Below are positions 7,600 through 56,931 of a stretch of 64,000 bases of DNA, piece by piece. The notes below the pieces were generated by a model, which was not told the origin of the DNA, ran no database searches, and saw only the letters and a list, made by a program, of their open reading frames with translations. Position 1 is the stretch's first letter; every line of letters begins with the position of its first letter. Origin of the DNA: Ipomoea triloba (taxonomy: Eukaryota; Streptophyta; Magnoliopsida; Solanales; Convolvulaceae); assembly GCF_003576645.1 (NCBI RefSeq), contig NC_044930.1:19520246-19584245 (forward strand). Direction: 5' to 3'. Position numbers and translations under genes: made by a program.

Positions 7600-9110
7600 T
7601 GAATGAAAAAAAAAATGCATTTTAAGATATATAATTGTGCTCCTGGAGTTATATATATACGCACCTAAGGTTATTTAAGTATGCACTGTGAGCTATATAA
7701 ATATGCACCTGAATGAACAAAAAAAATACACTTGAAGGAAAGAAAAATGCACTAGAAGATATATAATTGTGCTCCTGGAATTATATAAGTATGCACCTTA
7801 GTTATAAAAGTATGCACTTTGATTTATATAAATATGCACCAGAATGCACAAACAAATGCACTTCAAGACATAAAAATATGCACTAGAAGATATTAAAATG
7901 TGTTGAAGGCAAAAAAGTTAGGAAGCTTATTCTAAGGGTTGCGCAACTCAGGAGACCCATGTCCATGATGATTTTGTCACATCACCTTTGGGTTTTCTTG
8001 CTCAGTTGTAACAAGACTCGCTTTGGGATGCACCTGACTATGAGCTAACTGTAGAGGATGAGACGCAATTTCCTAGTTTGAAGATCCGAATTTCGACTAC
8101 ACTGTTAGTTTTCAAATCTCAATGATCTTTAATCCAGATGTGCACGAGCTAACTACAGAGGATGAGGCATAGTTTCCTAGTTTGAAGACTCAGATTTCGA
8201 CTACACTGTTGGTTTTTAAATCTCAATGATCTTTAATCTAGCTATGCACTACAATGTAACCATTAGTGCACCTGTACTTGTGTTTTTGTTTTGTTTTTTT
8301 TTTTGGGGGGTTTGGTTTCTGTTTGTTTGTTTGTTTTTTTTTTTTTTTGTAATANTTTCCTAGTTTGAAGATCCGAATTTCGACTACACTGTTAGTTTTC
8401 AAATCTCAATGATCTTTAATCCAGATGTGCACGAGCTAACTACAGAGGATGAGGCATAGTTTCCTAGTTTGAAGACTCAGATTTCGACTACACTGTTGGT
8501 TTTTAAATCTCAATGATCTTTAATCTAGCTATGCACTACAATGTAACCATTAGTGCACCTGTACTTGTGTTTTTGTTTTGTTTTTTTTTTTGGGGGGTTT
8601 GGTTTCTGTTTGTTTTTTTTTTTTTTTTTTTTTTTGTAATAATGATAATAAACATGTGATCGAACTTTTGCTTCTGTATATGGTTTGTTAGTTTTTGTTG
8701 TTGTCATCCAGTGCACACCACGTATCATAGATGTGCACACGGTGTAGTGAATATGTGCACTCGTATTGTACTAAGTGTGCATATGTGCACTCGCACGTAC
8801 TGTGAATATGTGCACAAAACAGTCTACATAAGTGCACACGTTCAATTCAATTAGTGCTCACGACATAGAATAAAAAAGGGGGGCAGTGCACACATAACTA
8901 AAGCAAAATCTCTGGCAAAATATAGATGCACATTTCAAAAAAGAAATGTGCACACACTCACACCCAGAGATGCACAGATGCATAATAATTAATATGTTAA
9001 GGCTTTCATGGTTACAAATTAAAAAACGCAAGTGCACACAAGTAATGGTGTGCAGTCGTTCGATCATACTAAAGTGCACAGAATAGAACATAAAGTGCAC
9101 ACAACGCGCT
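7600..9110. repeat. TGCAC-word tract
   Basis: The word TGCAC (or GTGCAC, ATGCACC) recurs every 15-40 bp with varied text between, for example tatgcacctgaatg, aatgcacttcaag and agtgcacacaac. The density far exceeds chance in such AT-rich DNA. A pair of ~80-bp direct repeats (8066-8130 and 8166-8235) lies inside. No continuous coding frame. It may be the subterminal region of a decayed MULE of the same kind as at 16.7-24.9 kb; I could not find its ends. Confidence 0.6.
8069..8641. other. Exact duplication around N at 8355 (probable assembly overlap)
   Basis: Bases 8069-8354 and 8356 onwards (about 286 bp) read the same, apart from a length change in a T run, and are separated by a single N. 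This pattern recurs at two other N positions in the window and is best explained by unmerged contig ends. Confidence 0.85.
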
Positions 9111-9349
9111 GTCGTCGATGCAACGACATACGAAATTAATCAAATTCAACTGTTGAAATAATTACTGATGAATAAAATGTCAAAATAAATAATTAAATAA
9201 ATAAATAATACAATCATAATAAATGGAAGTATGTAATCCTATCCTATCATAAATACATTCATAAAATCATGTATAACATCCTTATCAAATAATTTTCTGA
9301 TTTATATTGCTATTCAAATTTCATGTTTGCCCTTATTAATTCTTTTCCT

Positions 9350-9512
9350 ATATATATATATATATATATATATATATATATATATATATATATATATATA
9401 TATATATATATATATATATATATATATAGAGAGAGAGAGAGAGAGAGAGAGAGAGAGAGAGAGAGAGAGAGAGAGAGAGAGAAGAAGAAGAAGAAGAATA
9501 AGAAGAAGAAGT
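9350..9512. repeat. (TA)n-(GA)n-(GAA)n compound microsatellite
   Basis: About 79 bp of TA, then about 52 bp of GA, then a short GAA run. Open frames on both strands here (YIYI, LSLS, RERE) are artefacts of the repeat. Confidence 0.95.
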
Positions 9513-9677
9513 AATAATTATGGTTATTCTTGGCACAAAAAATTATTCTTGGCACAAAAAAGAAGTAAATGATGGCAATACTATCTATTTAAACAGTCAA
9601 CTAGTGGAAATTGTGGCAAATGACCACTTTTAATGCAAATTGAGATGTCCAAATATTACATCTGATCTATTTAAAAA

Positions 9678-10187
9678 GAGTTAATTCCAGCAATGGTCCT
9701 CCGACTATGTTGATTTTTCAAAATTAGTCCCCGACTTTTAATTTGGACAATTTAGGTCATTTGACTTTCAAATTCTTTCCAATGTTGGTCCTTTCGTCAA
9801 ATTTTGGTTAAATTGAGGTCAAATGAAGGGATTAAATTATCCGTTCACATGTTTAGTGTATTATTACTCGTATTTCTCGTATCATATACGCTGTATATAT
9901 GAATATAATCTCAGTCGAAGTCTCAATCGAAGCCAAATAATCTCATTCAATGTCTCTTCGACTGATATTATATTCATATATATAGCGTATAGGACATAAG
10001 AAATACGAGTATACAAGTGAACGGACAATTTTACCCCTTCATTTGACCTCAATTTAACCAAAATTTGACGAAAGGACCAACATTGGAAAGAATTTGAAAG
10101 TCAAGGGACCTAAATTGTCCAAATTAAAAGTCGGGGACTAATTTTGGAAAATCAACATAGTCGGAGGACCATTGTTGGAATTAACTC
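9678..10187. mobile_element. Foldback MITE with 10-bp target duplication
   Basis: Begins GAGTTAATTCC and ends GGAATTAACTC. The two arms, each about 170 bp, are near-perfect reverse complements, and the centre is also partly palindromic. TATTTAAAAA flanks both ends (9668-9677 and 10188-10197). Long arms and a 9-10-bp duplication suggest a MULE-related MITE. No coding content. Confidence 0.9.
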
Positions 10188-10199
10188 TATTTAAAAATC

Positions 10200-10840
10200 C
10201 ATAATCAAAATTAACACTACTGCAATAGTTAAAACATGATCTTTTTTATTAACTCTGAATTTACTTTAAAAAGAGAGAAAAATAGCTTGATTTGCTCATA
10301 CACTACTATATTTAGCATACTGAGAGTTTTCAATTAAGGATTTTGCAAGGGGTGGGGGGGGAAGGATTAAAGTCAATGGAAAATGAATTACGGTCAAAGA
10401 GAAAATAGCTATGTTTTTCTAGAAAATAACTTTCACTCTTTTTGAGGGGAAGTCCTTTTTCTAGGATTCATGATACTGCTTCATCTTCTTAAACATAGCA
10501 CAACTTCTTCATCTTCTTGCTACCATAGAAAAACCACAGCATTCTTCACCTTCTTGCAGCTGACCAGAAATGGTTTTCACACCAAAAACTAGTGCTATGG
10601 TTTCCTGCTTCGAAAATCAGTGTTTTAATTTTAATAAATAAAACTCACTTTGCTTATCTAGTAGCCGTAGTAGTATGTATAGCTGTAGAGCTTATTTGGC
10701 AATTAGCGATTAGCGGATTGCGTTAGCGGTTATCATGTAAAATGACCTATAAGAACATTCATGTTATTATTAATATTAATAATATTATTATTATGTAATA
10801 ATAAAATAAACTGATGATAATATTAATAACAATAATAAAA
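10200..10840. other. Intergenic, nothing recognised
   Basis: AT-rich sequence with an eroded AATNN repeat near 10760-10840. No convincing gene or element. Confidence 0.5.
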
Positions 10841-55358: not shown

Positions 55359-55433
55359 TATTAATTGTGGACATGAGTAGATTGTGTAAGAGTTGGAACA
55401 GTTGTCATTATTGATTTTCGTTATACTGATCGA
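55359..55433 (+). repeat. Fragment of a copia LTR, matching the LTR start at 63.8 kb
   Basis: TTAATTGTGGACAT, GAGTAGATTGTGTAA, CATTATTGATTTTCGTTAT occur here and, with small changes, in the same order at 63818-63895. This suggests the left and right LTRs of one old copia element. Confidence 0.55.
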
Positions 55434-55494
55434 ATGTTGGAATGAAAATTTCTATCGTTACAATATTACACGTCACTTTTCCTTTCTTACTCCC

Positions 55495-55570
55495 AAATCG
55501 GGTTATTTTTTCCTTCCCAAATCGGGTTATTTTTTCCTTTCTTACTCCCAAATCGGGTTATTTTCTATCG
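55495..55570. repeat. Short direct repeat, three copies
   Basis: CCCAAATCGGGTTATTTTTT repeated three times within 76 bp with small length changes. Confidence 0.85.
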
Positions 55571-55869
55571 GGGAGCGCTACAGGCTAAAAGGGAATCAGT
55601 TACAACACGATTGTTCAAGTTGACTATATTTACATAATTGTATTTAGTTTATATGCTTTTGGATATTATTTGATATGGAATATGTTTATGCCTAAAATAT
55701 ATGATATATTCGAATTCATACCATTTTACATACATATTCATAGTAGTTTTATATATACATATTTTTCTAATAAAAAAATAAAAAAAAAAGGATGCAAATA
55801 TTCTATCGTATGTATAAATATATTTTTCGAAAACAAATTATTTTGAAATATACATAAGTTTTTCAAAAA

Positions 55870-56228
55870 AAAAAAAAAAGGAGAATACATCCTTATTGCT
55901 ATCACTGTTGCCGGTGATGCTAGCTAGGTCTAGGATGCCACTCATTCCGATGGGTGTTGAGTGGCGCAGGTAAGTGGCGGTGATGGCGGCGCTGGCCATC
56001 TCGACAGCACTCTTAAGTGAGGTTGCCACTACCGTTCATGATATTCCAAATCAAGGAGGTTGTGGCGATGGTGGATGCGCGGTTCTCCGGTGGAGGGAGG
56101 CGGCGGCGGCAGTCGTCGTTGTCGCCATTTGCTTCGTCGAAATCGCAGGAAGCCACGTCGTCTTCTCTCTAAGCACTACGCCACAAAGCTGAGAAGAAGG
56201 ATTTTTACCTTTCTTTTACGCAAATTTT
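55870..56228. other. GC-rich stretch with no recognised gene
   Basis: Rich in GGCGG words (GGTGGCGGTGATGGCGG-like). Frames of 60-70 codons exist on both strands but none has a family signature. It may be a captured gene fragment. Confidence 0.3.
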
Positions 56229-56931
56229 ACTATGGGCCTCGGTCCACAATGTAGGGTAGTTCATACATCAAAACCACGTCGTTTTGATTAATGAAAAGAA
56301 ACGGCACCCATTCCACGCCGTTCCGCAAAAAGTAACTCTGTGTGTATAACATATTCAGTTTCATTTTATATACACTGCAGTTTCCTTCAAACACAATTAT
56401 AGTTTTTTTCGATATAACTACAATTTCATTCGACATTATACTCTCAAATATGTGAAATTGTTATTTAGTTTCATTTTATATATACTATAGTTTTATTACA
56501 ATACAACTACAGTATCATTTCGATACAACTACAGTTTTATTGGATAATATACACTCAAATATATGAAACTGTTATTCAGTTTCATTTTATATATACACTA
56601 TAGTTTCTTTTCAACACAATTACAGTTTCTTTTCGATATAACTATAGTTTCATTCAACATTCTACACTTAAATATGTGAAATCAGTTCATTTTAAATACA
56701 CTGCAGTTTTATTTTAACACAGTATCATTTTGATATAACTACACTTTCATTTGATAATATAAAAACAAATGTGATGCAGTATCATTTGAGATGAACTGTA
56801 ATTTCATTTACGGAGCTCCGTTAAGATGTGTCGACAATCGTTTCTTTACTTAAAGAAATGATATCGTTTTTGGACCATGATCTATGATCTACAAAGCTTT
56901 GTGGACCATGGTCCACGATATAAGAACGGTT
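56229..56931. mobile_element. TIR element with an ACTACAGTTTCATT word array
   Basis: Left arm CTATGGGCCTCGGTCCACAA and right arm (reverse complement TATCGTGGACCATGGTCCAC), each followed by matching AAAACGATATCATTT-like text, give imperfect terminal repeats of about 90 bp. The middle (56345-56790) is an array of AACTACAGTTTCATTTCGAT-type words arranged in about 120-bp higher units with TATATACACTGCAGTTTC. No coding content. Confidence 0.55.

Follow-up and report, generated by a model that had tools for sequence, protein, structure and literature searches.

A window of 64,000 nucleotides from the Ipomoea triloba genome (C15:19520246–19584245) contains tracts in which one short word, different from element to element, recurs in non-coding DNA at a constant pitch of 22 bp. 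The most complete of the elements concerned, T3 (16671–24866), is a FAR1-type Mutator-like element (MULE) with TGCAC arrays and two genes, a transposase and a second, putatively VANC-like gene (after the VANC genes of Arabidopsis VANDAL transposons). We consider it somewhat probable, from the combined analysis, that the window holds Mutator-like families and short derivatives of them whose non-coding arrays bind an element-encoded VANC-like protein, with the 22-bp lattice shared between families. Labels T1–T6 denote tracts or elements of the window, L0xx stretches elsewhere in the genome, and P00xx relatives of the second gene; all genome scans were made in this one Ipomoea genome of 462 Mb.

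Word counts were compared with 200 dinucleotide-preserving shuffles per tract. TGCAC on both strands was found 48 times in 7580–9120 (shuffle mean 5.7, maximum 13) and 95 times in 16671–24866 (mean 18.7, maximum 34). The other words were TTAAGGTGCG in 44249–44850 (13 copies; shuffle maximum 0), AGTTTCATT in 56230–56930 (4; maximum 1), and GTGCAA in 24929–25400 (7; maximum 2). An earlier reading of this DNA from its letters alone (the sequence-only reading) had proposed tracts built of one short word and grouped them as a class of elements, each with a word of its own. The excess was clear in these five tracts and weak at 15.8–16.5 kb (15790–16490: TGCA 9, shuffle maximum 8; TGTAC 7, shuffle maximum 6), and the class of elements exists. 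The word count at 7.6–9.1 kb is inflated, because 8069–8354 and 8356–8641, separated by a single N, are the same 286-bp sequence with 2 mismatches. This repeat is probably an unmerged contig overlap, as is a second one at 40866–42536 (835 bp on either side of a single N, 0 mismatches). Such assembly overlaps inflate some counts; the sub-tracts 7580–7900 and 8660–9120, used below, lie outside the 8069–8641 overlap. At a third N (38301) no immediate overlap was found, and duplicated reading frames lie nearby.

The same reading had held that the word is conserved and its spacing free, and this did not survive measurement. Autocorrelation was calculated over 49 lags (12–60 bp), with significance judged against 500 single-base shuffles, for nine segments: 7580–7900, 8660–9120, 17200–18950, 19870–20672, 22160–22460, 23575–24270, 24929–25300, 44249–44850, and 56350–56800. 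The strongest lag was exactly 22 bp in all nine, and the observed z score was reached by none of the 500 shuffles; between 7 and 12 of 500 shuffles peaked at lag 22, which is the chance level. At 15.8–16.5 kb, after excision of a nested insert, the top lag was again 22, with the observed z score reached by 5 of 500 shuffles. In 16671–24868, 22 pairs of TGCAC were separated by 22 bp and 17 pairs by 44 bp; each of the remaining distances in the range 6–79 bp occurred at most four times. The whole window was also scanned blind in 300-bp scan windows, of which 133 of 1274 were significant (z ≥ 4.5); 73 of the 133 peaked at 22, and every such run fell inside the listed tracts. After microsatellite masking, 71 of 108 significant scan windows peaked at 22, all in tracts, with 24.9–25.3 kb lost and 15.8–16.1 kb gained.

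Linker lengths were analyzed with each distinct linker counted once and with word-to-word distances restricted to 17–27 bp. Exactly 22-bp pitch was given by 40 of the 48 distinct linkers in the window (T1a 3/4, T1b 5/7, T3 17/17, T4 5/6, T5 8/12, T6 2/2), and the remaining eight gave 21, 23, 24, or 25 bp. When seven arrays from other parts of the genome were included, most of them found by their 22-bp lag, the figure rose to 73 of 82; the L025a array has a single linker, at 24 bp. Free spacing of the word is thus ruled out by autocorrelation, blind scan, and linker lengths, and among unrelated words the pitch varies least of all features. Identity among 22-bp linkers ran from 0.38 in T1b and T4 (five linkers each) to 0.78 in L025b (three linkers). 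In T5, L022, and L025b it was 0.72–0.78, and there the units are partly alike over their whole length; in T1b and T4 the same pitch goes with linkers that share only 38% of their letters, which indicates that length is kept where letters vary. A separate array of TGTTCG/ACGTTCACGAAC words at 50920–51398 has periods of 34–36 bp, off the 22-bp pitch.

T3 lies between TA arrays at 16639–16670 (16 units) and 24867–24928 (31 units), with degenerate inverted ends of approximately 63 bp that scored 50 (16671–24868) against a maximum of 42 in 300 single-base shuffles. Its transposase is encoded on the forward strand by an exon with a FAR1 DNA-binding domain (19095–19463; PF03101, 66.8 bits, cut-off 28.1) and by a frame with the MULE domain (20618–21508, exon start probably near 20673; PF10551, 74.9 bits, cut-off 27.6); a SWIM match at 21509–21718 reached 17.8 bits, slightly under the cut-off of 19.6. 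The sequence-only reading had named a FAR1-type transposase as a possible binder of the words, and the main element does encode one. Four TGCAC arrays on the forward strand, each with a top lag of 22, lie upstream of the transposase (17200–18950, z 13.9), in its inferred intron (19870–20672, z 9.8), between the genes (22160–22460, z 4.7), and in the inferred intron of the second gene (23575–24270, z 9.3). On inferred exon limits, taken from the open frames, non-coding DNA (4910 bp) holds 64 of the 68 TGCAC words of T3, and exons (3288 bp) hold the other four.

The second gene, which the sequence-only reading had overlooked, occupies 22795–23601 on the reverse strand and has a frame of 268 residues with a DUF1985-like or Plant mobile domain (PMD)-like region; the PMD match is sub-threshold (18.7 of 34.9 bits). 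For one of the element's proteins, the best relative was from Ipomoea batatas (93% identity across two thirds of the length); each of the 11 relatives found belongs to Ipomoea. Among the Ipomoea relatives of the second gene, 4 of 11 had been named by their depositors as Peptidase C48 or as members of the Ulp1 protease family. P0039, a longer Orobanche relative, is 35% identical to the second gene over 234 residues and carries a Ulp1 catalytic domain (Peptidase_C48) above the cut-off (27.5 of 20.7 bits). C48 was also present in P0037, and neither C48 nor DUF1985 was detected in the six other relatives scanned with these two. DUF1985 was not found in the T3 second-gene frame or its close relatives, and the T3 copy has no Ulp1 part in the frames read; the gene-domain evidence comes from a single distant homologue, P0039. 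A structure model of the second protein had a mean pLDDT (predicted local distance difference test score) of 37.6 and was unusable for a fold search.

The anatomy of T3 matches that of VANDAL elements in Arabidopsis. In that system YAGTATTAY is the motif bound by VANC21, and the elements on which VANC6 acts contain AGTTGTCC/AGTTGTAC; such motifs are dense in non-coding DNA, family-specific, and tied to sequence-specific loss of methylation, and VANC genes carry DUF1985 (PMC5735166, in the portions available). Specific recognition of such a long target by one protein is called enigmatic in the same portions (PMC5735166), and some VANC genes carry a Ulp1 domain (review, PMC13317346, available in part). 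DUF287 occurs in some VANC genes as well. T3 has in common with VANDAL a MULE transposase accompanied by a second gene, non-coding motif arrays, and degenerate inverted ends, as well as one short motif that is spread over introns, intergenic DNA, and terminal DNA and appears to differ between related families. The motifs themselves are different (TGCAC, CTTAAGGTGCGTG, ACAGTTTCATT, and others here; YAGTATTAY or AGTTGTCC/AC in VANDAL), the second gene of T3 is weakly DUF1985-like, the short elements T2, T5, and T6 have visible inverted ends, and the 22-bp pitch was measured here. On the strength of this match, the Ipomoea arrays are read as putative VANC-like binding arrays. Because relatives of the second gene join a DUF1985-like region to Ulp1, a VANC-like protein is a better candidate binder than the transposase.

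Two further groups of plant MULEs are similar in part. In the Ulp1-carrying Kaonashi/KIU elements, too, a MULE is paired with a second gene, and relatives of that gene have the Ulp1 catalytic domain, but the T3 copy has none of it in its frames, and word arrays are undescribed in the accessible part of that review (PMC13317346). MuTAnT elements of Medicago include autonomous and short MULEs inside TA arrays, as are T3 and T5, but they are foldback or terminal inverted repeat (TIR) elements with a single Jittery-like open reading frame (ORF), again with no description of word arrays in the accessible part of the paper (PMC4486113).

The pitch extends beyond the window. In a random sample of 20 stretches of 10 kb (one all N, several partly masked), 22 was the commonest significant lag (46 of 115 scan windows, 6 of 34 runs), followed by 42 (11 scan windows). 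Five of the six 22-bp runs were plain word arrays, with L014 the exception. T6-type arrays were present in L011 and L025 and a T5-type array in L025; the words TTGTGAAT (L010, and reversed in L022) and TTCTGTGTATT (L011) were not seen in the window. Short exact matches in these stretches were likewise most numerous at a spacing of 22 (199; median 103), and when the four array-bearing loci were excluded, 22 dropped out of the five highest spacings. T6, L010, L011b, L022, and L025b have similar ends, with a palindromic core near TGGACC..GGTCCA (TGCACC..GGTGCA in L011b) followed mostly by a stretch close to AAACGACGTCGTTTTG, and despite these ends they carry three different words. Eight unit profiles were compared in 28 pairs, uncorrected; agreement was found for T3-T1b, T3-T4, T1b-T4, and L010-L022, and on opposite strands for T3-T5, T1b-L010, and T1b-L022. 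The T5 unit may, by its sequence, be related to the TGCAC group (T3, T1b, T4). A single ancestral unit behind all words was rejected, since only a subset of pairs agree and T6 agrees with none of the other seven.

A 42-bp period was also rejected as a second lattice. The peaks in L021, L032, L034, L036, and L037 come from exact 42-bp blocks in two or three copies at partly overlapping steps, not from word arrays, and these stepwise copies look like gap-filling or assembly artefacts. In T3, 17543–17670 and 17871–17998 are perhaps 42-bp blocks of the same kind; a genuine 42-bp duplication in the element is another possibility.

Co-location of TGCAC arrays with the second gene was assessed for 92 of 144 gene matches and 76 of 285 array matches, with a 15-kb limit and an array query taken from T3. 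Among the matches listed, TGCAC arrays lay within 15 kb of 8 of the 13 gene loci at least 60% identical to the second gene (the window's own included) and of 1 of the 72 loci below 60%, and 0.22% of the genome lies within 15 kb of a listed TGCAC array. Ten distant gene loci (31–41% identity) were then examined together with approximately 3 kb of flanking DNA at either end; three of them, L034–L036, are near copies of one element. In their summed match statistic 22 was the top spacing (61; median 32). TGCAC stood at 2.31 times expectation (295 against 127.8) in these loci and at 1.33 times in 18 random loci; the ratio exceeded 1.4 in nine of the ten and was 0.71 in L033. In seven distant loci picked against near copies, GCACAC, TGCACA, and ATGCAC took three of the top four places in 6-mer enrichment. 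In L038 (750–1500), next to a distant VANC-like gene, the distance between TGCACACA words switches between 22 and about 34 bp (sum 56), possibly a two-step variant of the lattice.

The remaining tracts of the window are smaller. At 7.6–9.1 kb, T1a (7580–7900, forward strand; top lag 22, z 9.1) is a TGCAC array beside related second-gene fragments on the reverse strand, at 7346–7570 (48% identity over 60 residues to P0005) and 6527–6727 (54% over 37 residues to P0021), which makes both TGCAC tracts one kind of element. T1b (8660–9120; top lag 22, z 4.6) consists of GTGCACAC words with near-unrelated linkers. T4 (24929–25300; top lag 22, z 4.5) is a TGCA array. Among the short elements, T2 (15792–16505) has TGCA/TGTAC words and a lag of 22 (z 3.6 with its insert excised). 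The insert nested in it, at approximately 15925–16357, is GC-rich with inverted ends TTGCAAAAATC...GCCTAGGCG, and a relative of this insert is located at approximately 6140–6260 in L030, beside a VANC-like locus. T5 (44246–44848, forward strand; top lag 22, z 14.1) has CTTAAGGTGCGTG words, and T6 (56228–56935; top lag 22, z 6.1) has ACTACAGTTTCATT words and TGGACC..GGTCCA-type ends, with similar elements in L011 and L025.

Inverted-repeat ends, claimed wherever ends were visible, were borne out in four of the six stretches tested against 300 single-base shuffles: besides T3, these were T2 (score 65, shuffle maximum 39), T5 (44238–44856; 35, maximum 29), and T6 (56225–56940; 54, maximum 39). 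They were not above shuffles for T4 (24929–25410) or for the 7.6–9.1 kb tract (5200–9348, with the left end tried near 5.2 kb). The position of tracts against TA arrays was confirmed, on both sides for T3 and for 44.2–44.85 kb (T5, where the left array is short), on the right only for 7.6–9.1 kb (9349–9428), and through 24867–24928 for T4. A search for the T5 family gave 1966 candidates in a first look, of which 40 were scored. Five further copies were examined by eye: all had the 22-bp array and similar ends, and four lay between TA arrays. The fifth, L043, has a 10-bp direct repeat at its edges, as expected for a MULE target duplication. Spm/CACTA elements have CACTA termini and a 3-bp target duplication; the ends of T3 and T5 do not read CACTA and the L043 duplication is 10 bp, so membership of that group was rejected. 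Elsewhere in the window, repeats at 27171–27404 and 42442–42675 share a 118-bp unit and lie on either side of long frames (30080–33253 and 34749–38258), which resemble a Copia-type retrotransposon that carries an additional large ORF (27171–42675).

We propose that a VANC-like protein (DUF1985-like/Ulp1) would cover the element and so protect it from silencing. The protein would read the short word at sites 22 bp, or about two helical turns, apart, and this pitch would let adjacent molecules touch or share nearly the same face of the DNA, so that the lattice would reflect cooperative binding. The word would switch between families while the pitch stays, and T5, T6, and the elements with other words would have partners of this kind. 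The suggestion of the sequence-only reading that the word is selected as a binding site fits this proposal. The geometry alone resembles plasmid iterons such as those of R6K, where a protein encoded by the element recognizes direct repeats of a short site spaced at close to two helical turns; iterons belong to bacterial replication origins. A broader generalization, that plant Mutator-like transposons use one fixed 22-bp protein-binding lattice into which words are exchanged, with geometry conserved, word evolving, and ends kept, is advanced tentatively, as possible but short of probable.

Several observations weigh against binding by a VANC-like protein or against a lattice with freely exchanged words. 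The reverse word, GTGCA, falls in exons in 8 of its 27 occurrences in T3. The DUF1985 match of P0039, although inside the homologous region, is far sub-threshold (13.0 of 35.1 bits), and DUF1985 and C48 were absent, up to the thresholds used, from 20 Ipomoea and other relatives (two sets of 10, partly overlapping). The array query was itself a piece of T3, so kinship between whole elements would be enough to produce the co-location. The ten distant gene loci mostly have no clean lattice (4 of 60 significant scan windows at 22); enrichment of TGCAC in loci of this kind indicates that the word is older than the neat lattice, and because TGCAC is common to distant loci, the word is not always the fastest-changing part. 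Finally, among the matches listed, no VANC-like gene locus was within 15 kb of 39 T5 copies.

An unlikely alternative is that the arrays are sites for the transposase's own FAR1 domain and serve to assemble a transposition complex, in the manner attributed to the TnpA sites of Spm/CACTA elements. T3 does encode a FAR1 DNA-binding domain, and the short non-autonomous T2, T5, and T6 retain ends, arrays, and little else. The T3 arrays, however, fill introns and intergenic DNA several kilobases from the ends, where assembly of the ends would not need them, and words also occur beside the second gene in distant families.

Neutral growth of a minisatellite, in which an ancestral 22-bp unit spread by slippage or unequal exchange and then drifted, leaving the words as its slowest-decaying part, is in our judgment likewise unlikely. 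Such growth would account for the T5, L022, and L025b units, alike throughout, for the larger blocks duplicated within T3, and for the related look of the TGCAC, T4, and perhaps T5 units. It accounts poorly for T1b and T4, whose diverged linkers keep their length, and for T6, whose units match none of the seven others at an identical pitch. Across six T5 copies, mismatches to the majority were also fewer in word columns (74 of 1200 cells) than in linker columns (102 of 1132).

That the pitch reflects 22-nt small RNAs, with the arrays yielding or attracting phased small interfering RNAs (siRNAs) of a silencing pathway, is very improbable: 22 nt is a small-RNA size class and equals the repeat length, but linkers differ, so few whole 22-mers are held in common and the word alone repeats. 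Tandem repeats can be siRNA sources and targets of RNA-directed DNA methylation (PMC10398659, available in part).

No spacing, interval, periodicity, or helical terms were found in a term search of PMC5735166 or in the passages covered of PMC10398659, and literature searches showed no paper on such spacing. As far as the literature was searched, a constant 22-bp pitch across Ipomoea families with different words, including TIR-bearing, TA-flanked elements, is new. Sasaki et al. reportedly described in 2022 VANC specificity through sequence, density, and helical periodicity; periodic sites may thus already be published for Arabidopsis, and in principle the pitch may have a precedent. Transposons are known to use VANC-type proteins against epigenetic silencing, and a constant pitch with differing words gives a testable rule for them, that specificity is word times spacing. 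A 22-bp autocorrelation scan would offer a way to find such elements in any genome, with no need to have the word beforehand, and Ipomoea is a crop genus that offers a source of ready target arrays.

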